Shown here in pieces: positions 63 to 31,983 of a stretch of 32,010 nt of DNA (position 1 is the first letter of the stretch; every line of letters begins with the position of its first letter). Both the position numbers and the translations under genes were made by a program. This DNA is from a virus. Where the stretch lies: positions 1 through 32,010 of the IMG/VR virus record IMGVR_UViG_3300030061_000021. One strand, given 5' to 3'. The notes below the pieces were generated by a model. That model did no database searches. It was not told the DNA's origin and was given only the letters and a program-made list of their open reading frames with translations.

Positions 63-758
63 ATGGCTAATGTAACTGGTTGGGGTCGTGGGACCTGGGG
101 ACAACTTACTTGGGGTGAACCTATACCAGTTGTCGTTACTGGAGTTGCAGGAACTACTGCACTTGGTAGCGAAACAGTAATAGCTAAAGCTTTAGTATCA
201 GTTACTGGAGTAAGTGCTACATCAGCTTTAGGAAGTGAAACTGTAACAGGAACAGCTAATATTTCTGTTACAGGTAATGTAGGCACATCAGCATTAGGCG
301 ATGAAGTTGTTGCTGCTGATGCAAATACTTCAGTTACAGGTAATACTGGAACTTCAGCTTTAGGTAATGCTATTACAATGGGAGCTGCTGTTACAGGGGT
401 TTCTGGTTCAGCATCAGTAGGAACTCTTGGTGATGAATCGGTATCTGCAGCAGCTAATGTTGCTATTACTGGTATTTCTGCTACAAGTTCTTTAGGAAGT
501 ATATCTTTAGTAACAAATAATATACTTTCAGTTACAGGTTTATCAGGAACTACAAGTTTAGGATCAGAAACTGTAATAGCTAAAGCAGATATATCTATAA
601 CTGGTTTATCTGCTACTGGAGAAATACAAGGCGTTAATATTTGGTCTATAATAGATGATTCACAAACAGCAAGTTATAGTAATATATCAACAACACAAAC
701 AGCAAATTATTCAGAAATTTCTACTTCACAAACACCAGATTGGAGTGAAGTAGCATAA
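63..758 (+). CDS. Repeat-rich tail-associated protein (putative)
   Basis: A 231-residue protein with no signal peptide or membrane span. It begins with a GWGRGTWGQLTWGE segment, then carries about seven degenerate repeats of roughly 23-26 residues built on VTG-x(2-3)-(G/A)T(S/T)-(A/S)LG, separated by Ala/Val-rich stretches; LGSETVIAKA occurs twice. The last 30 residues are three 10-residue repeats of the type SQT-A-x-YS-x-IST, ending TPDWSEVA. The composition (Thr, Ser, Gly, Val, Ala) and position directly before the tail fibre suggest an extended beta-rich virion protein such as a tail fibre, tail spike or adhesin. I recall similar proteins from marine metagenomic phages, without a known function. 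The ATG at 63 has no clear ribosome-binding site, and translation may be coupled to the gene ending at 56. Confidence 0.65.
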   Translation: MANVTGWGRGTWGQLTWGEPIPVVVTGVAGTTALGSETVIAKALVSVTGVSATSALGSETVTGTANISVTGNVGTSALGDEVVAADANTSVTGNTGTSALGNAITMGAAVTGVSGSASVGTLGDESVSAAANVAITGISATSSLGSISLVTNNILSVTGLSGTTSLGSETVIAKADISITGLSATGEIQGVNIWSIIDDSQTASYSNISTTQTANYSEISTSQTPDWSEVA

Positions 759-782: not shown

Positions 783-3700
783 ATGGCAAGTTCATATGTA
801 AATGATTTAAGATTAAACGAGATGGCTACTGGTGATGCTAGTGGTACATGGGGTGAAACTACAAATACTAATCTTGAATTAATAGCAGAAGCTTTTAGTT
901 ATGGCACAGAAGCCATTACTACAAATGCTGATACGCATACAACTACAATAGCAGATGGAGCAACAGACCCAGGTAGGTCTATGTTCTTAAAATATACAGG
1001 CACATTAGATTCTACTTGTACTATTACTATAGGACCTAATACTGTATCTAAACTGTGGATCATAGAAAACGGAACAAGTGGCTCACAATCTATAATTATT
1101 AAACAAGGTAGTGGTGCTACAGTAACAATACCTAGTGGTAAAACTAAAGTAATTTATTCTGATGGTGCAGGTTCAGGTGGAGCAATGGTTGATGCTTTTG
1201 CTTCTTTAAATTTACAAACAAGTGGAATTATAGAAACATCAGCTTCAATACAAACAGGTCTTATAGAATTTACTGATGGCGATGATGCCATGACTATAGC
1301 AGATGGTGGTGGTGTTACCTTTGCACAAACAGCTACTTTTAGTGGTGATATAGATTTAGCTGGTTCTATAGACGTAGACGGAACTACTAACCTAGACGTA
1401 GTAGATATAGATGGAGCTGTAGATATGGCTTCTACATTAGCTGTGGGTGGTGTTGTAACTGCAAACGCAGGTGTGGTGGTAGATAACATAACTATAGACG
1501 GTACTGAAATAGATTTATCTAGTGGCGACCTTACGATTGATGTTGCAGGAGATATTATTCTTGATGCAGATGGTGGAGATTTTACATTTAAAGATGGTGG
1601 CACAACACAGTTTCAATTACAAAATAGTAGTGGTGATGTTCAATTAGTAAATAATACCCAAGACAAAGATATTAAGTTTATGGGTGATGATGGTGGCTCA
1701 ACCATTACAGCCCTTACCCTTGATATGTCAGATGCTGGTAAAGCTTCTTTTAATAACGGAATTTTAGCAGTCAATATTCAAGGTGCTGGAGACGAATCTG
1801 GTTGGACTTTTGGTGGTGCTGCAATAAATCCAAGAAAAAATGGGTCAGCAGCAGACAATACTGTAGATTTAGGGTCAACAAGCGCAAGAATGAAAGACAT
1901 ACATTTTGGCGGCACAATCAATGGCGTAGGTATATCTTCTAATATAACAAACTTTTCTAATAGTATATTAATAAGCCAAGATGCAGGTACAGGAACTTTA
2001 TCTTCAGCTAGTAATAATACTGGTCTTGGTAATGAAGTATTTAATGCATTAACATCAGGTACTCAAAATACAGCAGTAGGTAGTTTATCTTTAGATGCTA
2101 ATACTACAGCCGATAACAACACAGCAGTTGGATATAACTCATTAGGAGCAAACACTACAGGTGCTACTCTTGTTGCTATAGGACAAAATGCACTTGCAGC
2201 AAATACAACAGCTAATAATAATGTTGCAGTAGGAGCTGAAGCTTTAGAGGCTAATACAACTGGTGCAGATAATGTAGCTATGGGTAAAGCAGCTTTAGCA
2301 GATAATACTACAGGTAATTACAATACTGGAGTAGGTACTTTAGCAATATTAGATAATACAACAGGTTCAAGCAATACAGCATTAGGATATTTTGCTTTAT
2401 CAAATAACACTACAGCAAGTAACAACACCGCAGTTGGTAAAGATGCTTTACTATCAAACACTACAGGAACTCAAAATACAGCAGTAGGTAGTTTATCTTT
2501 AGATGCTAATACTACAGGTATAGAAAACACAGCTTTAGGTTATGCTGCCTTAAGTGCTAATACAACTGCAAATTTTAATACTGCTCTAGGTAGAAAAGCA
2601 CTAGAAGATACTACAACTGGTCATTCTAATACTGCAGCAGGTGCTGATGCTTTAAATCAAAATACAACAGGTGCTCAAAATACTGCTATCGGTTATCAGA
2701 ATTTATCAGCAAACACCACAGCAGATAACAATACTTCTGTTGGTTTTCAAGCATTAAAAGCAAACACTACTGGTACTCAAAATACCGCAGTAGGTTCTTT
2801 ATCTTTAGATGCTGCAACTACAGCAGATAACAACACATCAGTTGGTTATGCAAGTTTAACATCTACGACTACAGGAGCAGGTAATACAGCTCTTGGTAGA
2901 GCAGCACTAAATGAAAACACTACAGGAACTCAAAATACTGCTATAGGTAAAGATGCTTTAGAATCAAACACAACAACAAGTAGAAATACAGCTGTAGGTT
3001 TTGAAGCCTTAGAGCAAAACACAGCATCCGACAACGTAGCAGTTGGTTATTTAGCATTAGATACTAACACATCAGGTTCTAATAACACAGCAGTCGGTAC
3101 AGAATGTATGGATGCTAATACAACAGGTTCAGCAAACGTAGCTATGGGTTATAGAACTTTAGATGCAAATAGTACAGGCTCTAATAACGTAGCGATTGGT
3201 CAACAAGCATTAGGAGCAAATACCACAGCTGATAATAATACAGCAGTAGGTAAAGATGCACTTAAAGCAAACACTACAGGTGCTGACAACAATGCATTTG
3301 GCTCTGGTGCTTTAGATGCAAATACTACTGGTGGAGATAATAACGCTTTTGGTAGAGATGCTTTAGGAGTAAACACGACAGGTACAGGTAATACGGCTAT
3401 GGGTCACGGTGCATTAGATGCCAATACTACAGCAGACAATAATACAGGATTTGGTACAAATGTTTTATCTGATAATACTACAGGACATAGTAACGTAGCG
3501 GTTGGTTATAGAGCTTTATTAGATAACACTACAGCAAATAATAACACAGCAGTTGGGTTTTCAGCTTTACTATTAAACACTACAGGTACAAGAAATACAG
3601 CATTAGGTAGTTTAGCTTTAGACGCAAATACTACAGCAAGTAATAATACAGCTTTAGGTTATGATGCCTTGACAGATAATACTACAGGTGGTTCTAATAC

Positions 3701-4880
3701 TGCTGTAGGTAGAAATGCTTTATCAGATAACACTACAGGTACAGGTAATGTAGCTTTAGGTGCACTTGCCTTAACATCTAATACTACTTCTAATGGTAAT
3801 ACAGCTCTTGGTTATAATTGTTTGAGTACTAATACCACAGGTGCAACAAATACAGCAGTAGGTCAAGAAGCTTTACAAATGAGCACAACTGCAAATAATA
3901 ATGTTGCAGTCGGGTATCAAGCCTTAGAAGAAAACACTACAGGTGCTAATAACACAGCTATAGGCACTAATGCTTTAGATGATAATACAACAGCAAATAA
4001 TAACACAGCAGTTGGTCATGGTTGCATGAGTGCTAATACTACAGGTGACCAAAATGTAGCTATGGGTGTAGGTGCATTAGGAAATAACACAACAGGAACT
4101 ATTAACGTAGCTATGGGTTTTGGAGCGTTAAATGACAATACAACAGCTAATAACAATACTGCTATAGGTAATCAAGCTTTAGCTGTAAACACTACAGGAC
4201 CAAGGAATACTGCTTTAGGTTCATCAGCAGGTGCAGCTACAACTACAGGAACTGACAATACTTTTGTCGGTTATTTAGCTGGAGGTGTAGGCACAGTAAC
4301 AGGTAATAATAATACTACTCTTGGGTCATCCGCTGGTAAAAATTTATCAAGTGGTGGCAACAATCTCTTATTAGGACATGATGCAGGACTTTCGGGAAGT
4401 CCGGGTGGACCTATAGATACTGAATCAAATGAAATTGTCTTAGGTGATGAAAATATTTCAGCTGCACATATACAGGTAAGCTTTACAGTAGCATCTGATA
4501 AAAGAGACAAAACAGATGTAGAACCTGTAAAAATGGGATTAGACTTTGTTAATAAATTAGAGCCTGTAACATATAAATGGGATAAACGAAGTTTATATGT
4601 AGAAAAAGGTGAAGACTTTAATGACATAGTACCAGATGGTTCACATAAAGAAGATTGGTTAGATGTAGGATTTCTTGCTCAAGATGTTGAAAAACTTGAA
4701 TCAGAATATGGCTACAACATATCTGATAAAACCAATCTAACTACAAATGTTTCTGAAAATGGTGAACAGTATGGATTGACCTATTCTAAATTTGTACCTA
4801 TGCTTGTAAAAGCAGTCCAACAACTTTCTACGCAAGTAGATGAATTAAAAACTGAAATTAAAATTCTAAAGGAGGAATAA
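783..4880 (+). CDS. Long tail fibre with 46 tandem 17-residue repeats and S74 intramolecular chaperone domain
   Basis: A 1,365-residue protein. Residues 1-410 are beta-rich and repetitive (an N-terminal part with SGTWGET, then Asp/Gly-rich stretches such as DLAGSIDVDG), probably virion attachment and shaft. Residues 412-1193 are 46 tandem units of about 17 residues with consensus NTAVGxxALxANTTGxx, resembling the stacked head repeats of trimeric autotransporter adhesins (YadA/Hep_Hag type). The last 128 residues start at SDKRDK and match the S74 chaperone family seen on endosialidases and phage fibres: S1238 and K1243 have the Ser+5 Lys spacing of the known self-cleaving dyad, followed by LEPVTYKW and LAQDVEK motifs. 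A C-terminal helix ends in a coiled coil (VQQLSTQVDELKTEIK). The likely role is a trimeric receptor-binding fibre whose chaperone tip is removed after folding. The start is preceded by AGAGG. Confidence 0.88.
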   Translation: MASSYVNDLRLNEMATGDASGTWGETTNTNLELIAEAFSYGTEAITTNADTHTTTIADGATDPGRSMFLKYTGTLDSTCTITIGPNTVSKLWIIENGTSGSQSIIIKQGSGATVTIPSGKTKVIYSDGAGSGGAMVDAFASLNLQTSGIIETSASIQTGLIEFTDGDDAMTIADGGGVTFAQTATFSGDIDLAGSIDVDGTTNLDVVDIDGAVDMASTLAVGGVVTANAGVVVDNITIDGTEIDLSSGDLTIDVAGDIILDADGGDFTFKDGGTTQFQLQNSSGDVQLVNNTQDKDIKFMGDDGGSTITALTLDMSDAGKASFNNGILAVNIQGAGDESGWTFGGAAINPRKNGSAADNTVDLGSTSARMKDIHFGGTINGVGISSNITNFSNSILISQDAGTGTLSSASNNTGLGNEVFNALTSGTQNTAVGSLSLDANTTADNNTAVGYNSLGANTTGATLVAIGQNALAANTTANNNVAVGAEALEANTTGADNVAMGKAALADNTTGNYNTGVGTLAILDNTTGSSNTALGYFALSNNTTASNNTAVGKDALLSNTTGTQNTAVGSLSLDANTTGIENTALGYAALSANTTANFNTALGRKALEDTTTGHSNTAAGADALNQNTTGAQNTAIGYQNLSANTTADNNTSVGFQALKANTTGTQNTAVGSLSLDAATTADNNTSVGYASLTSTTTGAGNTALGRAALNENTTGTQNTAIGKDALESNTTTSRNTAVGFEALEQNTASDNVAVGYLALDTNTSGSNNTAVGTECMDANTTGSANVAMGYRTLDANSTGSNNVAIGQQALGANTTADNNTAVGKDALKANTTGADNNAFGSGALDANTTGGDNNAFGRDALGVNTTGTGNTAMGHGALDANTTADNNTGFGTNVLSDNTTGHSNVAVGYRALLDNTTANNNTAVGFSALLLNTTGTRNTALGSLALDANTTASNNTALGYDALTDNTTGGSNTAVGRNALSDNTTGTGNVALGALALTSNTTSNGNTALGYNCLSTNTTGATNTAVGQEALQMSTTANNNVAVGYQALEENTTGANNTAIGTNALDDNTTANNNTAVGHGCMSANTTGDQNVAMGVGALGNNTTGTINVAMGFGALNDNTTANNNTAIGNQALAVNTTGPRNTALGSSAGAATTTGTDNTFVGYLAGGVGTVTGNNNTTLGSSAGKNLSSGGNNLLLGHDAGLSGSPGGPIDTESNEIVLGDENISAAHIQVSFTVASDKRDKTDVEPVKMGLDFVNKLEPVTYKWDKRSLYVEKGEDFNDIVPDGSHKEDWLDVGFLAQDVEKLESEYGYNISDKTNLTTNVSENGEQYGLTYSKFVPMLVKAVQQLSTQVDELKTEIKILKEE
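2016..4361 (+). repeat. 46 tandem repeats of 51 bases inside the tail-fibre gene
   Basis: The stretch is exactly 46 x 51 bases and stays in frame. One unit is a codon short (EQNTASD) and a late unit is a codon long (GTVTGNN). Each unit encodes N-(T/V/N)-A-x-G-x(3)-L-x(2)-N-T-T-(G/A)-x-x. Most units differ at many third positions, but bases 2061-2109 and 2469-2517 are identical over 49 bases and lie exactly eight units apart (408 bases), with a diverged third copy at 2775. This is protein-coding repeat expansion, not a CRISPR array. Confidence 0.95.
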
Positions 4881-7985: not shown

Positions 7986-8230
7986 TGGATATAGTTATAT
8001 TAGTGCAAAAATTTGGTTTTCCTACTGTTATGGTTATAGGTTTAGGATATTTTGTATTTTTTGTTTGGCAAACAATAACAAAAACTATTGATCCATCTGT
8101 TAGTGAAATGAAAACAACAATTATTAGATTAACTGATCAACTTCGTTTATTAGATCAAGATATGATAAGGTTAAAAGAAAAAGTTGATACAGTTGTAAAG
8201 CTTAAAGAAAATGATAGAAATAAAAAATAA
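7985..8230 (+). CDS. Small membrane protein, one N-terminal span (paralogue pair, second copy)
   Basis: An 81-residue protein with a span at about 10-32 (FGFPTVMVIGLGYFVFFVWQ) and a helical tail (LTDQLRLLDQDMIRLKEKVDTVVKL). It aligns by eye with the preceding gene product over most of its length. The short N-terminal span followed by a basic coiled coil recalls YvrJ-like or holin-accessory proteins, with no firm family match. The last 20 bases overlap the csgF start in another frame, tying the curli genes translationally to the membrane-protein run. Confidence 0.6.
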   Translation: MDIVILVQKFGFPTVMVIGLGYFVFFVWQTITKTIDPSVSEMKTTIIRLTDQLRLLDQDMIRLKEKVDTVVKLKENDRNKK

Positions 8231-8723
8231 AAAAAATTTACATGAAGAACATGAAAAAATATTTATACTTAAAACTTTAGTTATTATAGGAATAATAATA
8301 TTTTTAGGTATTATTGGTGTTAATTTAAGTGCTGATCAAATAACTTTTAAATTTAAGTCCCCATCTTTTTCTGGAATTGGTACTAGCTCACATTATCTTA
8401 CTATTGAGAATCAAGAGCATATGCGTAAGATGACTATAAAAGAAGAAATAAAAGCATTACAAGAACAACTAGAAAGAGATGCTGAGAATACAACACTTGC
8501 AAGATTTATAAGAAATTTAGAAAGTCGTATTTATGCACAAATATCCAGACAGATTGTAGAAAATATGTTTGGTGAAACACAATCAACGGAAGGCACATTT
8601 GAACTAGAAGGTAATATCATCTCTTATAAAATAGAAGATGGTATGATAATACTTACAATTTTTAATACTAATGATGGTACAACAACTGAAATATCTTTGC
8701 CTCTCGGGGATTTTTCTTTCTAG
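8211..8723 (+). CDS. csgF: CsgF-like curli secretion accessory protein
   Basis: A 170-residue protein with a charged N-terminus, a hydrophobic segment at about 18-42 and a likely signal-peptidase site after LSA. The mature part begins DQITFKFKSPSFSG, matching the CsgF N-terminal pattern (TF-x-F-(R/K)-(N/S)-P-x-F-(G/S)-G), which is the segment known to sit in the CsgG channel. A helical region (RFIRNLESRIYAQISRQIVE) and a final beta region (GNIISYKIEDGMIILTIF, then TTTEISLP) also fit the family. In bacteria CsgF is a periplasmic/surface partner that binds CsgG and couples the curlin nucleator to it. The gene begins inside the preceding gene and its last 53 bases overlap csgG. No other ATG before the hydrophobic core is in frame. 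Confidence 0.87.
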   Translation: MIEIKNKKNLHEEHEKIFILKTLVIIGIIIFLGIIGVNLSADQITFKFKSPSFSGIGTSSHYLTIENQEHMRKMTIKEEIKALQEQLERDAENTTLARFIRNLESRIYAQISRQIVENMFGETQSTEGTFELEGNIISYKIEDGMIILTIFNTNDGTTTEISLPLGDFSF

Positions 8724-9492
8724 TTGTGCAGTCTTTGATGTAGTCAGAGATACAAAACCAGAAAGATTTGAAAGAAAAGGATTAAATAATTACAGTATAT
8801 TTGATTTACAATCTGCTGAACTTAAATATATACAAGCACCAAAAATAAAACCAGTTGTAGCTGTTTATCCTACTGCATTTACAGATCAGACAGGACAAAG
8901 AAAAAGTAATAGTGAGTTTGCTTTATTTTCATCAGCTATAACACAAGCACCATATACTATACTTATAAGGTCTTTAAAACATGCTTCAGATGGTAATTTT
9001 TTTCGTGTAGTTGAAAGAATAGGTCTTGATAATCTTACAAAAGAAAGACAACTTATAAGATCGACAAGAGAACAATTAGATGATGAAAATGTTTTATCAC
9101 CTTTATTGTTTGCAGGAGTTTTATTAGAAGGCGCTGTTGTTTCATATGATAGTAATCTATCAACTGGTGGAATAGGAGCTAGGTATCTTGGTATTGGTTC
9201 TAGTATGCAATATAGAGAAGATTCTGTTAGTGTAAGCTTACGAATGGTATCTGTAGCTACAGGAGAGATACTTATAGAAGTAATGTCACAAAAAACTATA
9301 TATAGTTATGGGCAGTCACAAGATATTTTTAAATTTATAGAAATGGGAACTGAGCTTGTAGAGGTAGAAATAGGTTCTGCCTCAAATGAGAGCACTACTT
9401 TAGCTTTAATGAAAGCTATTGAGGGTGCAATTTTAGAACTTATTAATATAGGGTACGAAAGAGGGTACTGGAAATATGAAAAAATTAATTAA
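8671..9492 (+). CDS. csgG: CsgG-like outer-membrane curli secretion channel (lipoprotein)
   Basis: A 273-residue protein with a lipoprotein signal ending LSSC; C19 would be the acylated residue. The CsgG family match is strong along its length: VAVYPTAFTDQTGQ, then LIRSLKHASDGNFFRVVERIG, NLTKERQLIR, FAGVLLEGAVVSYDSN, GGIGARYLGIG, VSVSLRMVSVATGEIL, TIYSYG, and EIGSASNESTTLALMKAIE. CsgG forms a nonameric diffusion channel in the outer membrane that exports curlins. Around the channel constriction, an alignment by eye keeps the Phe equivalent of E. coli F56 (in ALFSSA) but not Y51 or N55, so the gate may differ. Length is close to the bacterial protein (277). The lipoprotein signal is encoded almost entirely within the end of csgF. 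Confidence 0.93.
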   Translation: MMVQQLKYLCLSGIFLSSCAVFDVVRDTKPERFERKGLNNYSIFDLQSAELKYIQAPKIKPVVAVYPTAFTDQTGQRKSNSEFALFSSAITQAPYTILIRSLKHASDGNFFRVVERIGLDNLTKERQLIRSTREQLDDENVLSPLLFAGVLLEGAVVSYDSNLSTGGIGARYLGIGSSMQYREDSVSVSLRMVSVATGEILIEVMSQKTIYSYGQSQDIFKFIEMGTELVEVEIGSASNESTTLALMKAIEGAILELINIGYERGYWKYEKIN

Positions 9493-10201
9493 CTTTGTTT
9501 TATTTTTATCATTATCTGTTTTGGCAGATAATGAAATATATGTAGATCAGTCAGGCAATTCAGCTACTATTGATTTAGAACAACTTGGATCATCAAACTT
9601 AATAGGTGGAACACAGGCTACATCTGGAACAATGACTGCTTTAGACCTTGATGGTGTGTCAATGACACTTGACATTAATCAAATAGGAAGCTCAAACATT
9701 TTTAGATCAGATGCTATTGATGGTGATAACTTCACTGGATATTTTGAGTGGAATGGTGATTCTAATATTATGGATATACTTATGAACAGTACAGGTCTTA
9801 TTAGTGCTGATTATGTTAATCTTAATATTGACGTAACAGGCAGTAGTAATGAATTTGATTTAGCTATAGCTGAAAATGCAGATTCATCTTATCTAGACTT
9901 AGATTGGATAATAACTGGAGATAGTAATGAGCTTGATTTTGATATTGACTATGCAAATGCAATTAACTATCTTGATATAAACGGAAGCACAAACACATTA
10001 AATTTCACTGGAAGTGGGTATGGTGGAACATCATCAGCAGATGCAGGTTATTTTTATCTAGATTTAGATGGGAGTTCAAATACAATTGACATTACACAAT
10101 CATCTACATTGGCAAGGGATTATCTTAAAATTATTAGCAATACTTCTAATAGTAATATTTGCGTTATTCAAAACGACCAAGGTACAAGCACAAGCTGTTA
10201 A
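9476..10201 (+). CDS. Exported curlin-like repeat protein (probable CsgG substrate)
   Basis: A 241-residue acidic protein. Residues 1-17 form a short signal peptide (MKKLINFVLFLSLSVLA, cut before DNE). The rest has eight or nine beta-turn repeats around a G-(S/D)-(S/T)-N core: QSGNSAT, QLGSSNLI, QIGSSNIF, WNGDSNIM, VTGSSNEF, ITGDSNEL, INGSTNTL, LDGSSNTI. The early repeats keep the curlin-type Q-x-G-x(3-4)-N spacing; later ones replace Gln, and the whole is Asp-rich. This looks like a CsgA/CsgB-type solenoid rather than a close copy. The C-terminus (NICVIQNDQGTSTSC) has two Cys that could pair. It starts within the last 17 bases of csgG, supporting a substrate or nucleator role. Amyloid formation is inferred, not shown. 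Confidence 0.72.
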   Translation: MKKLINFVLFLSLSVLADNEIYVDQSGNSATIDLEQLGSSNLIGGTQATSGTMTALDLDGVSMTLDINQIGSSNIFRSDAIDGDNFTGYFEWNGDSNIMDILMNSTGLISADYVNLNIDVTGSSNEFDLAIAENADSSYLDLDWIITGDSNELDFDIDYANAINYLDINGSTNTLNFTGSGYGGTSSADAGYFYLDLDGSSNTIDITQSSTLARDYLKIISNTSNSNICVIQNDQGTSTSC

Positions 10202-11231
10202 TATTGGTGATATCTCTGAATTAAGAGGTAACGCACAAATAGTAAGAAATAAACCCTTAGATGCTTTTGTAGATTTTAATATACAAAGTAATGATGAAGC
10301 TATAACTTCTAATGGTCGTATGGCTATAACATTTCTTGATGATTCTACAGTTAGACTTACAGAACACAGTCAATTATTAATAGACGAGTATATATACGAT
10401 CCAGACCCAAGCAAATCTAAAATGGCACTTACATTTGCTATTGGAACAACTAGATTTATTTCTGGGAATATAGATAAACTTAATAAAAAAAATATATCTT
10501 TAAAAACACCTACAGCTAATATTGCTATAAGAGGAACAGATTTTACAGCTACAGTAAATGAGTTGGGTGAATCATTAATAATACTTTTGCCAGATAAATA
10601 TGGTTTATCTAGTGGAGAAATAGAAGTAATAACTGCAACAGGAAGTGTCATACTTAATAAACCTTTTGAAGCTACTACTGTTTCCGTATTTGAAAATGCA
10701 CCAAGCAAGCCAGTAATATTAGATTTATCTTTAGATTTAATTGATAACATATTAATAGTATCACCACCTGAAGAAAAAGAAATAAAACAAGAAGAAGTTG
10801 TTGCACAGTCAAATAGTATTTTAGATTTTAATGATTTAGATATTGATTATTTAGAAGAAGATTTTTTAGATAGTGAATCTGATTTAGAATTTACTGAGCT
10901 TGATATAAATTATTTAGATGTAAATTTTCTTGAAGATTTGTTAGATGTAATAGATGAATTAAATATAGAAGATGAACAAGAAGAATTACAAGCTGATGTA
11001 ACATCTTTATCTATTGTAGGCACTAAGTTTGGTCAAGATACTGAAACACAAATAACTACTTTTGTTACAGGTGAAAAATTAACTGTTTTAAGAAGTGTTA
11101 ATAATACAGCTAGAATAGATATAAACTCTGGTGGTAGTTATACAGTTATTTTAATACAAGATGGTGTATCAAGAACTATAAAAATAAATGGTGGTAGTAG
11201 CAGTATTATAAGAATTAAACAGGAAAGCTAA
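10068..11231 (+). CDS. Exported FecR-domain protein
   Basis: A 387-residue protein with a hydrophobic segment at 18-34 and a signal-peptidase site after AQA (residue 43), so the mature chain is periplasmic or beyond. Residues 45-200 are a FecR domain, with LRGNAQIVRN, AITFLDDSTVRLTEHSQL and the signature LKTPTANIAIRGTDFTA. An acidic stretch at about 249-305 has a repeat (LDIDYLEEDFL, LDINYLDVNFL). The last 75 residues are beta-rich with GGSYTV and GGSSS. Unlike true FecR sigma regulators it has no cytoplasmic anti-sigma part, and no sigma factor or TonB receptor is nearby; instead the gene is fused by TAATG to the CHASE2 cyclase. I recall FecR-domain proteins next to CHASE2 cyclases in bacteria. 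ATG 10068 lacks a clear ribosome-binding site; TTG at 10086 is an alternative. Confidence 0.82.
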   Translation: MGVQIQLTLHNHLHWQGIILKLLAILLIVIFALFKTTKVQAQAVNIGDISELRGNAQIVRNKPLDAFVDFNIQSNDEAITSNGRMAITFLDDSTVRLTEHSQLLIDEYIYDPDPSKSKMALTFAIGTTRFISGNIDKLNKKNISLKTPTANIAIRGTDFTATVNELGESLIILLPDKYGLSSGEIEVITATGSVILNKPFEATTVSVFENAPSKPVILDLSLDLIDNILIVSPPEEKEIKQEEVVAQSNSILDFNDLDIDYLEEDFLDSESDLEFTELDINYLDVNFLEDLLDVIDELNIEDEQEELQADVTSLSIVGTKFGQDTETQITTFVTGEKLTVLRSVNNTARIDINSGGSYTVILIQDGVSRTIKINGGSSSIIRIKQES

Positions 11232-12973
11232 TGAAAAAACTTATATTACCTATAGTTGTAATATTATTATTACCATTAATATATCAATTAACACCAACAG
11301 AGATATTAAAACTTAGAGTATATGATGCTCTAATAGAAACACCAGAATCATCAGGTAATTTTGTAATATTAAATATAACTGAAGAAGATGTAGAGATTGA
11401 AGGTGGTTATCCTTTACCAAGACAAAGACTTGCAGAGATAAATTTACAATTATTATCTAAGGGTGCTATAGGAGTTGGCTGGGCAATATCATTTCCACAA
11501 GCTGATAGATTTGGTGGTGATGAGGATTTTGCTAGATCACTTGGTTATGCACCTTCAGTTATAGCTATGTTTGAAGATGGTAAAGGTAATTATCCTAAAC
11601 CTACAGGAACAGTGGTGAAAGGTAAAGATAATGGTGGTATAGTAAGTTTGGGAGTTAAGGAAAACCTGAACACTCTTACAGATAATACATTGCAGGGTCT
11701 AGCCATTGCTCCCACAGAAGTAGATCAACTTGTAAGAAGAATACCTCTTTTAGTTAAAACTCCAGAAAATCAATGGATAGCTAGTTTTGGCACACAAATA
11801 TATAAATCAATATTTGATGTTAAGACATACATTATAAAAACTAGTGATAATGGTATAGAGGAAATATCAATACGAGGAATACCACCTGTCAAAACAGATA
11901 CTTTAGGTCGTAAATGGATAAGTTGGGTAGATACTCAACAAACAGATTTACAAGAAATGGATGTTAATGGTAGGTTTGTTATTGTTGGAGTTACTGCAGC
12001 AGGGGTGATGCCGCAAATTTCTACACCTGTTGGTTTATTAGAGCCTCATAAAATACAAGCTGCATTAGCAGAAAGTATATTAATACAAGATAGTCCTTAT
12101 ATTCCTGATTGGCATTTGGCTGCTGAATTATTAATTCTAGTGATAACAGTAACCTTTGTATGGTTTTTAATAAATATTTTTGGAATAACTCTAGGAATAA
12201 CATTTACCAGTCTATTATTTTTATTAACAATATTTTCTGGATACTATTTAATACAGCGTGGAATATTAATAGATGTTAGTTGGACTTTAATATCTCAATT
12301 TATAACTGCTTCTATAGGTTTTTATTTACGATTTAGAGAACAGTACAAACTAAGACAACAAGTTAAAAAACAATTTGAACACTACCTTGATCCAAGACAA
12401 GTTAAAAAACTACAAGATGATCCAAGTTCTTTAGTATTAGGTGGAGAACGTAGATATTGCACTTTTTTATTTACAGATGTAAGAGGATTTACTTCTATGT
12501 CTGAAAAATTAGAACCTGAAGAAGTAACAAATATAATGAATAAAGCTCTAACAATACAAGCAAATGCAGTTAAAAAGTATGGTGGTATGGTTGATAAGTA
12601 TATTGGTGATGCAATGATGGCTATATTTAATGCTCCAATAGACTTAGAAGAACATGAGACTGTTGCTGTTAATTGTGCTAAAGAAATACAAGATAATATA
12701 AAACAAGAAAATTTAGGTATTGAGATTGGGATAGGTGTTAATACTGGATATGCTGTTGTAGGCAATATGGGAAGCGAAACAAGGTTTGATTATACAGCTA
12801 TAGGTGATGCTGTTAATCTTGCAGCTAGATTAGAAAGCTCTACTAAAGAAGTGGGAGAAGATATAGTTATAGGTCATTCTACAAAGAAAGAATGTAAACA
12901 TAAGTTAAAGTTATTAAAACCAATATCTGTTAAAGGTAAACAAAAAAAGGTAATAATATATACATGGAATTAA
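11231..12973 (+). CDS. CHASE2-domain membrane adenylate cyclase (class III)
   Basis: A 580-residue protein: N-terminal span (4-18), an extracytoplasmic CHASE2 sensor (about 25-275; LRVYDALIE, YPLPRQRLAEIN, LLSKGAIGVGWAISFPQADRFGGD), three spans (about 290-365), a linker (YLDPRQVKKLQDDP) and a class III cyclase domain (about 405-575). Catalytic positions are complete: metal-binding D416 (FTDVRGFT) and D460 (KYIGDAMMAIF), adenine-specifying K456 and T522 (FDYTAIGDAVN), and transition-state N529 and R533 (NLAARLE). The Lys/Thr pair fits class IIIb adenylate rather than guanylate cyclases. It should make cAMP under control of a periplasmic signal, perhaps the neighbouring FecR protein. The start has AGGAAAG upstream and overlaps the FecR stop. 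A full-length sensor cyclase in a phage is unusual. Confidence 0.92.
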   Translation: MKKLILPIVVILLLPLIYQLTPTEILKLRVYDALIETPESSGNFVILNITEEDVEIEGGYPLPRQRLAEINLQLLSKGAIGVGWAISFPQADRFGGDEDFARSLGYAPSVIAMFEDGKGNYPKPTGTVVKGKDNGGIVSLGVKENLNTLTDNTLQGLAIAPTEVDQLVRRIPLLVKTPENQWIASFGTQIYKSIFDVKTYIIKTSDNGIEEISIRGIPPVKTDTLGRKWISWVDTQQTDLQEMDVNGRFVIVGVTAAGVMPQISTPVGLLEPHKIQAALAESILIQDSPYIPDWHLAAELLILVITVTFVWFLINIFGITLGITFTSLLFLLTIFSGYYLIQRGILIDVSWTLISQFITASIGFYLRFREQYKLRQQVKKQFEHYLDPRQVKKLQDDPSSLVLGGERRYCTFLFTDVRGFTSMSEKLEPEEVTNIMNKALTIQANAVKKYGGMVDKYIGDAMMAIFNAPIDLEEHETVAVNCAKEIQDNIKQENLGIEIGIGVNTGYAVVGNMGSETRFDYTAIGDAVNLAARLESSTKEVGEDIVIGHSTKKECKHKLKLLKPISVKGKQKKVIIYTWN

Positions 12974-22092: not shown

Positions 22093-25000
22093 ATGACTGA
22101 ATATGATATTGGTGGTGGGAAAAAAATACAAATTCCAGATAATTTAGATGCTGAAACAAGATTAAAATTAGCTGAAGTTATAAAAGATGAATATGGAATA
22201 GATATAAATCAAACATCAGCACTAGAGCAAGCAAAAGAGTTTGGTAAAGCGATACCTAGAGGTATTGCTAGTTTAGCTTTAGATGTGCCTACAGGTATTG
22301 TTGGTTTATTTGATATTGGCAACGATAGTAACTTATATAAAGGTCTTGAAGGTTTACAAGATAGACTAAGACAAGATTCTGTATTAGCAGCAGACCCACG
22401 ATATGCTGATAAATTTTCTACAAAACTAGGAGAAGGCGTAGGATCGTTTGTTCCTTTCTTAGGTGCAGGTATGGTAGGTAGAGCTTTAGCAAAGGCACCA
22501 GGAGCAGCTAAAGGCTTTTTATCACCAACATTTACAGCACCAACAGCTTTAGCAATACCAACAGGTATAGCAGCACAAGGCGATAGACTGCAGATGGCTA
22601 GAGAGATGGGTGAAGATGTAAGTGGTCTTACTGAGACTACTGCTGAATTATTTGGTGGTCTCATAGGTATAAGTGAAGTAGTGCCTATTGCTAGTATATT
22701 AGGTAAAGTTCACAAAAACGCACCATTATCTTATAAAGAACAATTAGTATCAGCATTGCAATCAGGAGCTGTTGAAGGTGGTCAAGAAGTTCTTGCTTCA
22801 GTATTACAAGATGGTGTAGCAAGAGGTCTTTATAGTGAGGACTTACCTACTGGCGATAGTATGTTTGAAGAATTTACTATTGGTGGCATTATTGGTGGTG
22901 CTGCTGATCTAGTTGTATCTAGTATGGCTGGTAAAAAATCTATAAGAGATGCACAAATAAGAGAAGATGAGTTAAGGTCTGAAGAAAATAAACGAAAAAT
23001 AATACTTGAAAAGAAACAAGAACAAGCTGTTGAACAAGGTGTGCTTGAAGAAATGCAAGACATACCATCTGTTACAGTTCCACAAATAATAGCACCTGAA
23101 GAACTAGGAGCAGAGCCATCTGTAGAAGTTATAGTCACACCACAAGAACAATTTGCTGTTGTTGATATTAGTAATCCTGAAGCTCCTGTAGAAATTGATA
23201 TAAAAGATAAAGAAGTAGATGCTATTAAAGTTAGAGATAAAATAACGCAAGACTTTAACAATAAAAAATTAAAATCAAAATTAGACAATGACACTTATAA
23301 CTTAGGATTAATTAATAGTTCTACTGCTTATGAAATAGGACAAAGCTTAGAAGATAGTAGAGCTAGTGATGTAACTATTTCACAGTTAATTAATAGTGTG
23401 CCTAAAAATTCTAAACAAGAGGTAACTCTTAGAGGCTTAGTAAATAGTTTTGTTGCACAAAATCCAGGCAAAACTTCTCGTAGTTATCCTAGATTATCTA
23501 TGGCAGAAGCTAAACAATTATTAACTGCAAAACAATTTAATGAATTTACATCTGCATATGCACAAGGAGTATTTAAGGCTTCTGAGAAAAAAGGTGAGCC
23601 TTCTATTATTGCAGATAAAGATACAATAGATACATCAGCTAAATATATAAAAGAAATAGCTGCATCTAAAAATATAGATTTAAGTTTCTTATCACCTGCT
23701 GTTTTATACGCAGCAGAAAAATACACAGGTACTGCTGAGTTCAGTAAAATGAATAAAGGTCAAAAAGAATTATTTTTGGCTAAACTTCATTCAATTCCAA
23801 AGTTCAATTCAAGAACAACTTTCCCAGACTTTAGACCAAGAGACTATACTGCACAGGATATGGCAGATTTTGTTGCTAATGCAAAAAGCGACAAGATTCT
23901 TTTTAATAGAATTTCATTACAACAAACTGGTAGACAAGATCAGTTTTTTGATGATTTGATTTATAGTGGCAGAGCTGAACAAGTAGAAGGCACTAATAAC
24001 TATAAGATTAGAGATAACTTTGAGTTTGATATAGCTAGAAAAGCAGAAGGTTTTAATGAAACACCAGAAGAATTTGGTGCAAGACTTACTACAGAAGGCA
24101 AATTACCTGCAGAATCTATTGCAGAATTAGTAGAACAAGAAAGAACAAAACAAGAAAGACTATTACCACCTGTAGAAGTAGAACCTAAATTTATTAACTA
24201 TGCTGAGACCTTGCAAGAAGGTAAGGTTAATAAGTTTGCAAAAGAGTTTAGAAAAAGATTAAACGCTGTAGGTTTAAAAGAAACTGGTATTGTTGTAAGT
24301 GATGACATACTTTCTACTACTACATTAAGGAGAGTAGATGGAGAAATAAAATTTGATCCAAGAGAAACTAGAGGATCAGTAGAAGGACAATATGATAAAA
24401 ATACAGATACTATATTTTTATCTTTAAATGCAGTTAATCCTGATGGTGGTGCTACAGAAGTAGAAATAGAAGAAAGACTTAGAAAAGTATTAGACCATGA
24501 AATGATACATGCTTTTAGAGCAAAAGATTTAATTAATAAATCTGAATATAGTTATTTAACTAAGATGACTAAGACAACTAAATTTCCTAATGATTTAAAA
24601 AATAGAACTTTTTACAATGAAGCTGTAGAAAGAACTAAAAGAGAAAGACAAGGCAGAAGTGCTGCAATACAAGAGGATTTAATTGTAGAAGAAGCTATAG
24701 CAGAACTTTTTAGAAATAAAGATTTACTGATTAATACTCCTCCTAAAGTAGATGGCATCTTTAATAAGATAATTCAGTTCTTTAAAACTGCAGGACAAGC
24801 AATGCGTAGCTCAGGCTACAAGAGTGCTACAGAAATATTTAATAATATAGAATCTGGCAGGGTTGGTGCAAGAGAAAGAGGAGTTGTGCGAACCACAAGA
24901 CTTGTAGATAAGGGTCTTATTCCTGCTAATTTTCTTACGACAGAAGAACGAGATGAAGTTATAAGGACACCAGAGCCAATTCCTGGTGATGAGATAAGAC

Positions 25001-28000
25001 AAACTCTAAGACCTAGAGGCATAAGACCTACAGCTATACCAAAACCAACACCAGCACCACCTGTGCCACCTACACCAACAGGTCCTACTACTCCACCTAC
25101 TACACCTACACCACCTGTTGGACCTGTTACAAGTCCTGTGCCAAATAAAATTTATAACTCACAAACAATGAGTTTTGCAGAAAGAGCAAAAGAAAGACAA
25201 TTTATTTTAGATGGTCTTAGAAATGCAGGTGTATTTAATCCAAGAAGTCGTACTAAAGGTGATTCTGTAAAGATGATGAAATGGTTAAAAAATAATGCAC
25301 CTAATGAAGATTACAAAATTATAGCTACAAAAGTGCATCAATCTTTACTAGCGTTACAAAAATTAGGTTATGACTTTCCTTTAGAAATTACACAGAATCA
25401 AAGAAAAGTAAGAGGATTTAGAGGTAGGATAGGGTATGACAAACTAAGACCACAATCTTTTGAAATGCGTATTAATGATAAGTTTGGTAGAGATATTCCA
25501 AAAGATGAAACAGCTATTAAATTAGTGCCTGATACAAATCCTTTATCTGAAATTATAAAGGCAACTAATGGTGTAAATTTTGAAACACTACTACATGAAG
25601 GCATACATCAAGCTACTGTTCCACATATGGAAGATGTAAGTGGTGGTCCAAAATCTAAGAATAAAAAAATAGCTAAAGCATATAAAGATTTAGCTAATCA
25701 AAGAAAAAGAGTTGAGACCTACATTAGAGATATAATGTCTAAATTTGATGAGGGTGCTACAAATATTGATGAAGGTAAATTAACTTTTGATCAATTTATT
25801 TCTAGTTTACCTACTACATTAAATAAATCTTTAAGGAGAGATTTAGTAAGTGTATATTTTGATAATGGAAATTTACGAACTAGAAGTCAAGTAAGAAGAA
25901 ATATAAAAGAGTTTGAGAGAATTTTAATAAATTATAAAATTAATGGAATACAGAGTGGAAGTCCTAATCCAGATTCTGCAGAATTTTTAACATTTGGTTT
26001 AACAAATAGAAATTTTCAAGAGATATTAGAATCAATACCAACAAAACCAGGTGCTACTAAAAGTATATGGAATGAGTTTGTTGAAGCTATTAGAGCTATA
26101 TTAGGAATACCAGCTAAACTTAATACAGAGTTATCTGCATTTCTTAAAAATGCTGGAGTAGTTTTAGATTTACAAGCTGAGGGTGTGCCTTTTGCATATC
26201 AACTTGCTGGTACGGATGTTGGTCGTAGAGGTGTGGCTGAAGAAGTTACCTTATTTAGTAGACCACCAAGAGATGAATCATCTGGTCATTTAGCTGATTT
26301 CGCACCTGCACAATATGGTCCACCTGCACATGACTTAAATGCAAAACCTAGTCAAGAAGAATTTACTCCTGAAGGTTATTCTACTTTTGATGTGACTGTA
26401 GATTACAATCGATTGAGAGAGTACAGCACAGCTAGACCTGAAGAAAGAGCTGAAGAACAAAGATTTTTAAATAAGTTAAAACAAATCAAAGGTAATCCAA
26501 ATGCAGAAATAACTATGTATCAAGCTGCACCACAAAGAGATTTAAGAGAGGGAGATTTAATAACTCCATTCTTAAGTGAAGCTGAAGCTCTTGTAGAAGA
26601 TTCTAAAGTTACACAACAAGAAATAAAAGAAGCACAAAAAGATGCAAGAATACAAGATAGATTAGATAGAGGTGTAGATGAACTTACTGCTAGGAGAGAT
26701 GAAGGACTGTTTGATGCTTTTGATCGAATGTTAACAATATCTGATGTAACTCCATCAAGAGTACATACTTTTAAATTAAAAGCAGGTGATGTTCGTTGGG
26801 ATGGTAATAATGGTTGGGCACGATGGGGTTATTTCCCATCAAGAGTAAAAGATATAGGTGGAGATATACCTACCTTTAGTAGAGCACCAAGTAGATTTCC
26901 AACAACACAAGAACAAATAGATACCGCCTCTCAACAAATATTAGAAGATAGTCTTAGCTATCATAATAATTTAGTAGAAAAAACAGAAAAAGAATTATTC
27001 CAAGATGTATTAAGACCTGATGAAAGAACTACTCTTGATAGAAGGCGTTATAACGCAGAAGCTGTTGTTGCTAAAACAGAAAGAAGATTAAGAGAATTAC
27101 AAACTAACACAGGACAGTTACCTTTATTTAGTAGAACTAATTTAGTACCTGATGATAGTGAAGTTCCTTTTGATTGGGCAAGAAAAAATAGTTTTGAAAC
27201 TTATTCAATATTAGATCAATTAAAAATGAGTAGAGAGGATGGTGGTAATAGAGATAATCCTGCACCACTTAAAATGGCTATAGTTGAAGCATTTAAAGGT
27301 AGAAAGAATAGACCTTTATTAAGAGCTAGTAAAAAATTCTTAGAAAGATTTACAAATAAAAAAGGTAACTTAGTTTTATTTAGAGCTTTAAATATTCCTG
27401 AAGGTGAGAAAATTAAAAACTATGGACAGCTTCCAGAAGATTTATTTGCAAGCACAACATTAAATAGTAAAGAAGCACTAGCTATAGGTCGTAATTTATT
27501 TAACAGATCACAAAGAAGGGGTGAAGCATGGAATCCTGAAATACTTAGATATGAAGTTCCTATGAGTAAAGTAAAAGGTTATGTCCCTATATTATTAAAA
27601 GCAATGAAACCAGATTATATTGATATGCTTGAAGATTCATATAATGGTTCGGGCATTTATAAAAGAGATGCTTTGAATCAATTACAAGAAGAATTTGATA
27701 AAAGTTATTATCGAATTGAAGATTTAAAGAGTGAGCTTGAAGCAACTGAATCTGATATAAGTCGTGAAGAACTAGAAGAAGAAATAGATAGATTAGAAAT
27801 TGAATTTGATAATGAGTTTAGAGAGTTTTTATATCCAGGTAGTGAGCCTAATCGTACAGAAAGTCAAGAAGATTTACTTGAAGATGAAATGTATAGCTAT
27901 GATAGATACATTGAAGAAGCAGAAGTTCTTACTGATCTTCGTGGCATAAAACCAACATATCAATATTCTCCAGAATTAGAAAACAGAAAAGCTGCTTTGA

Positions 28001-31289: not shown

Positions 31290-31682
31290 TTATATTTTGC
31301 TGCAGCCTGGAGCTGCGATCACCAATTCACACCTAGGATTGTCTTTATCAATCCCACCAAATTTATAGATCACTTCTTTGATCTGTTTAAAACTATCATC
31401 CTCTAACACATTCGCTTTAACTAATGCGTCACAGGTAAACTTATCAATAATAGAACAAGGATTACTAACATCTAACCTTCTCTTGGTTTTGGCGTAGTAT
31501 GTATAGGTCAATATCACAGGCTCCTCATACATAGGATAGCTAATCCTATCAACTAAATTTTCTGCATAAATCTTTTTGGCACTAGCCAACACCCTATAAT
31601 GTGCGTTGCGATAGTTATTCAAGTTCAAGATAAACTTCTTATTCTTTGTGTAGTAAACCTCTAAAGGTAGATCAATCTTCAT
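31290..31682 (-). CDS. rusA: RusA-family Holliday-junction resolvase
   Basis: A 130-residue protein. It begins with LPLEVYYTKNKKFILNLNNYRN, followed by helices and the RusA core: RRLDVSNPCSIIDKFTCDAL with D71 and D80, then VLEDDSFKQI with D95/D96. In the family a cluster of Asp residues binds Mg and the dimer cuts four-way junctions. The length is close to E. coli RusA (120). The C-terminus (CELVIAAPGCSKI) is not special. Its start overlaps the end of the Ref-type nuclease gene by 11 bases, so the two are co-transcribed on the minus strand and fit a DNA recombination or debranching step before packaging. Confidence 0.8.
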   Translation of the reverse strand: MKIDLPLEVYYTKNKKFILNLNNYRNAHYRVLASAKKIYAENLVDRISYPMYEEPVILTYTYYAKTKRRLDVSNPCSIIDKFTCDALVKANVLEDDSFKQIKEVIYKFGGIDKDNPRCELVIAAPGCSKI

Positions 31683-31983
31683 TCTTTAGTATATTATTAA
31701 CTTGCTCTAATAACTTTTCTTCTGTGCCATAAGCACTCTCAAATCTTCTTTTGTATGGATGTCTGCTAATCATTGGCTCAAACCTACCACCTTCTCTATG
31801 ATGCCCAAAACATAAGGGCAATACTTTAAAGTGTGCGTTATCCTTTGTCTTGCCTTCTATGTGGTGTATTTCAGCAGGTACTACACCTAAACCCATATTC
31901 CTACAAACAATGCAACCTAAATCGCTTACCTTGTCCATGTGTTCAGCTTCTTCTTTTGTTGGGTTTCTACCCTTTATTGACAT
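31672..31983 (-). CDS. Ref-type HNH nuclease (RecA-dependent nuclease family, probable)
   Basis: A 103-residue protein with a zinc-binding HNH-like arrangement: C24-x2-C27 (GCIVCRN), H40-H41 in PAEIHHIEG, C58 with H61/H62 in LPLCFGHHREGG, and H75 in ISRHPYKRRFE, ending in YGTEEKLLEQV. The pattern (C-x2-C, AEIHH, LC-x2-HH, FE-x2-YG) fits the Ref family of phage nucleases, which make RecA-dependent DNA cuts; a generic HNH endonuclease is the alternative. It is followed on the same strand by rusA with an 11-base overlap, suggesting joint action in recombination. The ATG lacks a strong ribosome-binding site and may be coupled to a gene upstream. Confidence 0.75.
   Translation of the reverse strand: MSIKGRNPTKEEAEHMDKVSDLGCIVCRNMGLGVVPAEIHHIEGKTKDNAHFKVLPLCFGHHREGGRFEPMISRHPYKRRFESAYGTEEKLLEQVNNILKNED

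Follow-up and report, generated by a model that had tools for sequence, protein, structure and literature searches.

How is a phage tail fibre built from dozens of short repeats remodelled, and can its surface or its length change while the repeats stay in step? The question is raised by the tail fibre gene of the uncultured virus recorded in IMG/VR as IMGVR_UViG_3300030061_000021. The window analysed here is the entire 32,010-base record; the record, in turn, may be incomplete. The fibre gene encodes an N-terminal part, followed by 47 units of about 17 amino acids (aa) and a C-terminal S74 chaperone (Table 1). A first-pass annotation of this DNA had noted an exact duplicate of 49 base pairs (bp) within the array, with the copies eight units apart, and had read it as a sign of recent gene conversion or block duplication and, consequently, of ongoing change in fibre length that might affect receptor reach. 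The array is probably the shaft of the fibre: an old, saturated repeat that is changed by in-register homeologous recombination between non-allelic units. The 49-bp duplicate alone is a minor event; the more interesting observation is that blocks appear to have moved between phages into other array positions.

A synonymously saturated repeat

The units of the window array end in glycine, and the two of odd length are a 16-aa unit at 3000-3047 and an 18-aa unit at 4272-4325. The first unit and the last three are degenerate. The earlier count of 46 tandem repeats at 2016-4361 is essentially correct, as 46 corresponds to 2346/51; the unit chain used here gives 47. Unit counts throughout were derived from an automatic motif chain, by which diverged units can be undercounted. 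The S74 domain scores 42.7 bits against a PF13884 cut-off of 22.

Compared pairwise, the 45 units of 51 bp average 59% identity, and a given residue is encoded by matching codons in 55% of comparisons; on these two figures, the statement that most units are diverged at synonymous sites was correct. Adjacent units are characterized by a mean identity of 0.60 (lag 1), units eight apart by 0.596, and the values remain within 0.58-0.61 for each lag from 1 to 23: a unit-to-unit comparison thus discloses no higher-order blocks. The array differs in this respect from a slippage-type hypervariable tandem repeat, in which neighbouring units are near-identical.

Table 1. Features of the fibre gene and its repeat array (window coordinates; expect values given as E)
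Feature	Position	Strand	Details
Tail fibre gene, 1365 aa	783..4880	+	Open reading frame; PHROG tail spike 4636, virion structural 23837/6002
INGVGI motif	1917..1934	+	Shortly before array
Repeat array	1980..4376	+	47 G-terminated units: 45 of 17 aa, one of 16, one of 18
Exact 49-bp duplicate, copy 1	2061..2109	+	
Exact 49-bp duplicate, copy 2	2469..2517	+	
Third, diverged copy	2775..2823	+	43/49 identical to each of copies 1 and 2
Block common with L100 fibre	2944..3254	+	88.1% over 311 bp
Block common with L218 fibre	3261..3556	+	92.9% over 297 alignment columns; other array place
Block common with L005 fibre	3732..4044	+	85.4% over 314 bp
Peptidase_S74 domain (intramolecular chaperone)	4494..4706	+	PF13884, E 7e-11, residues 1238-1308

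Blocks shared between phages at shifted positions

Related arrays were collected in four scans of viral contigs, from each of which the best 80 loci were taken, and all counts given here describe the matches listed. Together with the window, 167 of the 319 loci provided 176 open reading frames (ORFs) containing arrays; 148 are distinct and 138 have at least 10 units. Individual loci are designated by numbers preceded by L.

Three blocks of the window array have counterparts in the fibres of L218, L100 and L005. They score 445, 384 and 330 bits, compared with at most 219 bits in 60 shuffles of the unit order. For L100 and L005, relationship to the window can also be recognised beyond the array. 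Outside the array region of L218 (6 kilobases (kb) compared), a single blastn match was obtained, a 107-bp stretch at the gene end with 79% identity; the array of L218 is complete, and the block is placed in it at distances from the two ends that differ from those in the window.

The pattern extends to the wider sample. Among the 138 arrays of at least 10 units, 50 pairs share at least 150 bp at 84% identity or more, and in 36 of these pairs the shared stretch covers under half the length of the smaller array, with 49 arrays involved. The block is ectopic, in that its distance differs from both array ends, in 26 of the 36 pairs, and both arrays are complete in 10 of the 26. This all-array comparison recovers two of the three window blocks, the L005 block falling outside the chained array of that locus. 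Of the 36 start offsets, 22 correspond exactly to a multiple of 51 and the others lie within two codons of one; the register is kept. Ectopic tracts measure 250-330 bp in 17 of the 26 pairs. A preferred block length is not claimed, as the thresholds and the extension of BLAST matches into conserved motifs may produce this clustering.

These counts suggest that exchange between phages is a commoner trace than the insertion or deletion (indel) of one unit. In the portions of the literature covered by our search, no description of block exchange or of unit-number change in phage fibres was found.

The 49-bp duplicate as a one-unit patch

The two exact copies occur nowhere else in the window and are offset by 408 bp, or 8 x 51, as first reported. 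The patch has the length of one unit: it starts right after TSG in copy 1 and NTTG in copy 2, and ends one base past the next NTT. Its surroundings are not alike, with 59% identity between the two copies in the 51 bp before and 57% in the 51 bp after. A more diverged relative of the unit is located near 3591.

Local gene conversion is the best reading of such a patch, and four other explanations have to be weighed against it. The first, which we consider unlikely, is that another phage carrying the same unit donated it to one of the two sites. Transfer of larger blocks between phages does seem to take place, and L083 has in its array a similar unit, 42 of whose 49 bases (85.7%) match copy 1; however, a scan of viral_contigs returned no exact match to the 49 bp, although records very near the window may lie outside that scan.

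An assembly artefact, in which reads of co-occurring strains were joined or the unit was repeated by the assembler, is distinctly unlikely. The record belongs to an uncultured virus, such arrays are difficult to assemble, and internal exact repeats do not exceed 22 bp in the three cultured phages checked. Nevertheless, the frame is preserved and the two regions are unlike outside the patch. Moreover, exact repeats of at least 41 bp are present in four of the 147 other arrays, although these are metagenome assemblies as well. The five arrays concerned are L105 (135 bp), L236 (85 bp), the window (49 bp), L106 (46 bp) and L119 (41 bp), so that the window ranks third among the 148 distinct arrays. 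The repeat of L105 (ORF from 7267) spans nine units from copy to copy and that of L236 (ORF from 2465) about 23.

Recent tandem duplication of a 408-bp, eight-unit block by unequal crossing over, with lengthening of the fibre, is very improbable and is rejected. In its favour are the offset of exactly eight units and the possibility of out-of-register exchange in this array, but the remainder of the block (2110-2468 compared with 2518-2876) is only 63.5% identical overall and 57-73% per unit, where unit pairs in general average 59%. The offset is no sign of a block, because any in-register pair gives a multiple of 51. Of the two events originally proposed, conversion is supported and block duplication is not.

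Chance, or selection for the same peptide combined with strong codon bias and no copying, is scarcely credible even though the unit SLSLDANTT recurs in arrays of other phages and the AT-rich genome has biased codons: in 1000 synonymous-codon shuffles preserving the protein, the longest repeat anywhere in the array averaged 21.8 bp, reached 38 bp at most and never 49 bp, and the probability that all 16 whole codons agree, given identical amino acids and the array's own codon usage, is 1.4e-5. The 49-bp identity is the longest exact repeat of the window array; the next longest measure 26 and 24 bp, and these and shorter ones (19 and 18 bp) fit the shuffle expectation (95th percentile 28 bp). The same test was applied to 137 arrays, L215 being omitted for ambiguous bases. 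Ten, the window included, contain an exact repeat beyond all 100 shuffles, where about one is expected; local copying therefore occurs, as a minority trace.

The direction of the conversion is weakly hinted at by the flanks. Downstream, the third copy and copy 1 have a common flank (84.6% over 78 bp) that copy 2 lacks, and the similar unit of L083 is followed by a flank of copy 1's kind. Because of these two agreements, copy 1 may be the older of the two, with copy 2 having received the sequence. Conversion in place preserves the number of units, and a change in length therefore does not follow from the patch: on the predicted fold, a single turn would acquire a different surface while the fibre kept its length.

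Variation in length and module boundaries

Evidence that fibre length does change, as had been proposed from the duplicate, comes independently from a one-unit indel and from the spread of unit numbers. The 102 complete ORFs contain from 6 to 65 units, with a median of 31. L182 and L186 are 99.3% identical over 1485 nucleotides (nt), then differ by one 51-bp unit, and agree again over the 126 nt that remain before the L186 contig ends. The junction is a hybrid within the ANTT-coding motif, and seven of the 11 upstream differences fall in the last 66 nt before the indel. A larger change is seen between L130 and L135, which are 99.4% identical over their first 2534 nt and carry a 354-bp difference inside the array.

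When complete pairs sharing at least 500 bp at 95% are considered, 19 differ in length (with several repeats among them) and four do not. These four, which are more than 99.6% but not wholly identical over a full-length alignment, speak against fast change, although pairs of equal length are the only ones that can be aligned in this way. Length thus changes among relatives, but no change was seen in pairs closer than 99.6%. Pelagibacter phages HTVC111P and HTVC112P infect one host strain and have surroundings that are 82-84% identical, and their fibres are 811 and 756 aa long. This single pair hints that fibre length alone does not decide host choice.

L243 and L244 have the window's flanks, in pieces of 83-93%, and fibres without the 17-aa array. 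L006 (3274-3983) and L007 (7998-8707) are identical from about 1.27 kb upstream to fibre nucleotide 710, where a break occurs at INGVGI; beyond it are different arrays of 41 and 31 units by automatic count. A misassembly could produce the same appearance.

Predicted fold and related systems

A single-chain AlphaFold2 model of units 4-12, built with 59 other array segments in the alignment, is a beta-solenoid in which strands recur once per unit. The model has a predicted local distance difference test (pLDDT) value of 76.7 and a predicted template modelling (pTM) score of 0.73. One solenoid turn per 17-aa unit, resembling the head of the adhesin YadA, is thus predicted. In structural alignment of this model, the top rows are AtaA (Z 14.0), YadA (13.8), BpaC (13.7) and BoaA (13.6), and left-handed beta-helix enzymes, which reach Z 13.2, tie with these YadA-type heads. 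In sequence, the adhesin heads are 19-32% identical to the model and the enzymes 5-17%. A Foldseek search of the model against the PDB gave no significant match, the best being BoaA at E 0.91. Solenoids of this kind are also predicted for numerous proteins of viruses, among them giant viruses (53 with E no higher than 0.001). The glycine at the unit end is invariant across nine units in a 60-sequence alignment, although this is partly built in, as the segments were picked by a motif ending in G. Fold matches from sequence were too weak to be used (Pfam LbH_EIF2B, E 0.12; PDB chain 7ar9_z, E 0.012); Pfam yielded no YadA match for the array and sequence search no PDB chain for the whole fibre.

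The likeness to the heads of YadA, BpaC, BoaA and AtaA, which for the phage fibre is a predicted one, consists of a solenoid with one turn per repeat and an invariant glycine. There are also differences: these heads have a repeat of 14 residues, or 15 in UspA1, according to PMC9543794, as against 17 in the window, and the window array belongs to a phage fibre with an S74 chaperone and has units that are saturated in their DNA rather than near-identical. The same source proposes that the addition or removal of layers tunes length, reports BoaC to be without 10 layers, and gives a rise of 4.8 A (0.48 nm) per layer for BpaC. If this value held for the 47 units, the array would measure about 22 nm, with each unit contributing half a nanometre.

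Among named phage records, 109 have a relative of the fibre detectable by tblastn, those of Synechococcus and Bacillus phages being most numerous. The best relatives are gp55 of Methylophilales phage Venkman, gp52 of HTVC111P and gp48 of HTVC112P, which contain the same 17-aa repeat (43-46% over 52-70% of the fibre). They differ from the window in their N-terminal parts and unit numbers, and their longest internal exact repeats measure 18-22 bp. An account of pelagiphage metaviromic islands (PMC3909814) describes a conserved fibre N-terminus, a fibre-specific repeat and a variable C-terminal part, in one case with a YadA domain; in-register block exchange and unit-number change do not figure in the sections available.

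A proposed mechanism of remodelling by whole turns

In the mechanism that we propose, each 17-aa unit would form one turn of a YadA-head-like beta-roll in the tail-fibre shaft, and selection on this fold would hold an old, synonymously saturated tandem repeat in register. Homeologous recombination between non-allelic units would have its junctions in the conserved ANTT/NTTG motif. Within a genome, this process would generate one-unit conversion patches and occasional whole-unit indels, the 49-bp duplicate perhaps having been copied from units 2-3 into units 10-11; between phages, multi-unit blocks would shift to other array positions. Fibre length and binding might both be affected. The patch with its limits, the saturation of the remaining units, the blocks shared at shifted places, the single one-unit indel and the range of lengths are direct observations; conversion as the event, its direction, the fold in the virion and any effect on length or binding are inferences.

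A number of observations weigh against this mechanism. An array open at one end is included in 16 of the 26 ectopic pairs, and three of the 26 rows repeat nearly identical arrays (L180/L183 and L199/L211); there are therefore fewer independent ectopic cases. Decoys with shuffled unit order still yield eight pairs, seven of them between closely related arrays. The L182/L186 indel lies only 126 nt from the contig end of L186, the gap as placed has no more than 0-2 bp of perfect microhomology, and a search for a donor of the changed stretch of L186 found none. Furthermore, unit identity is slightly higher within than between arrays in 115 of 143 arrays (0.548 compared with 0.535), and agreement of same-residue codons is higher within the array in 22 of 25 sampled arrays (0.478 compared with 0.424). 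Shared codon usage would explain this slight excess, and some homogenisation would do so equally well; strong homogenisation is not seen.

If the proposed recombination between units is correct, it would provide abundant marine phages with a countable route for remodelling their host-contact fibres, by whole turns and between diverged phages. Change in length would be separable from change in surface, and fibre evolution could be tracked in metagenomes by counting units and by following shared blocks and junction motifs. A broader and tentative extension is that marine phages hold a common pool of interchangeable 17-aa beta-roll units, in-register homeologous recombination at ANTT carrying multi-unit blocks from one diverged fibre to any place in the array of another and rebuilding shafts in whole turns. 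Such a pool would allow surface and length to change without breaking the fold. On the minus strand at 31672-31983, the window encodes a Ref-like recombination enhancement, RecA-dependent nuclease (PF16786, E 4e-20), which may promote fibre recombination.

Other genes of the window

Immediately upstream of the fibre gene, a 231-aa protein (63-758, plus strand) has degenerate repeats of its own, of the VTG..GTSALGSETV type; a short tandem lies at 659-741, and neither Pfam nor PHROG gave a match. The gene at 22093-30939 (plus strand) encodes a protein of 2948 aa that includes an LPD38 domain (E 5e-37).

The region 8211-10201 (plus strand) contains the curli secretion genes CsgF (E 7e-17) and CsgG (E 1e-47), together with a small protein that looks secreted and matches the curlin repeat below threshold (E 0.0036, 17.6 bits against a cut-off of 20.7). 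For pelagimyophages, PMC7029224 reports CsgF and CsgG and calls CsgA and CsgB missing; for this reason the candidate curlin is noteworthy. At 10068-12973 (plus strand), a FecR-domain protein is followed by a 580-aa protein combining CHASE2 (PF05226, E 2e-24) with an adenylate/guanylate cyclase domain (PF00211, E 2e-19), an unusual cargo for a phage.

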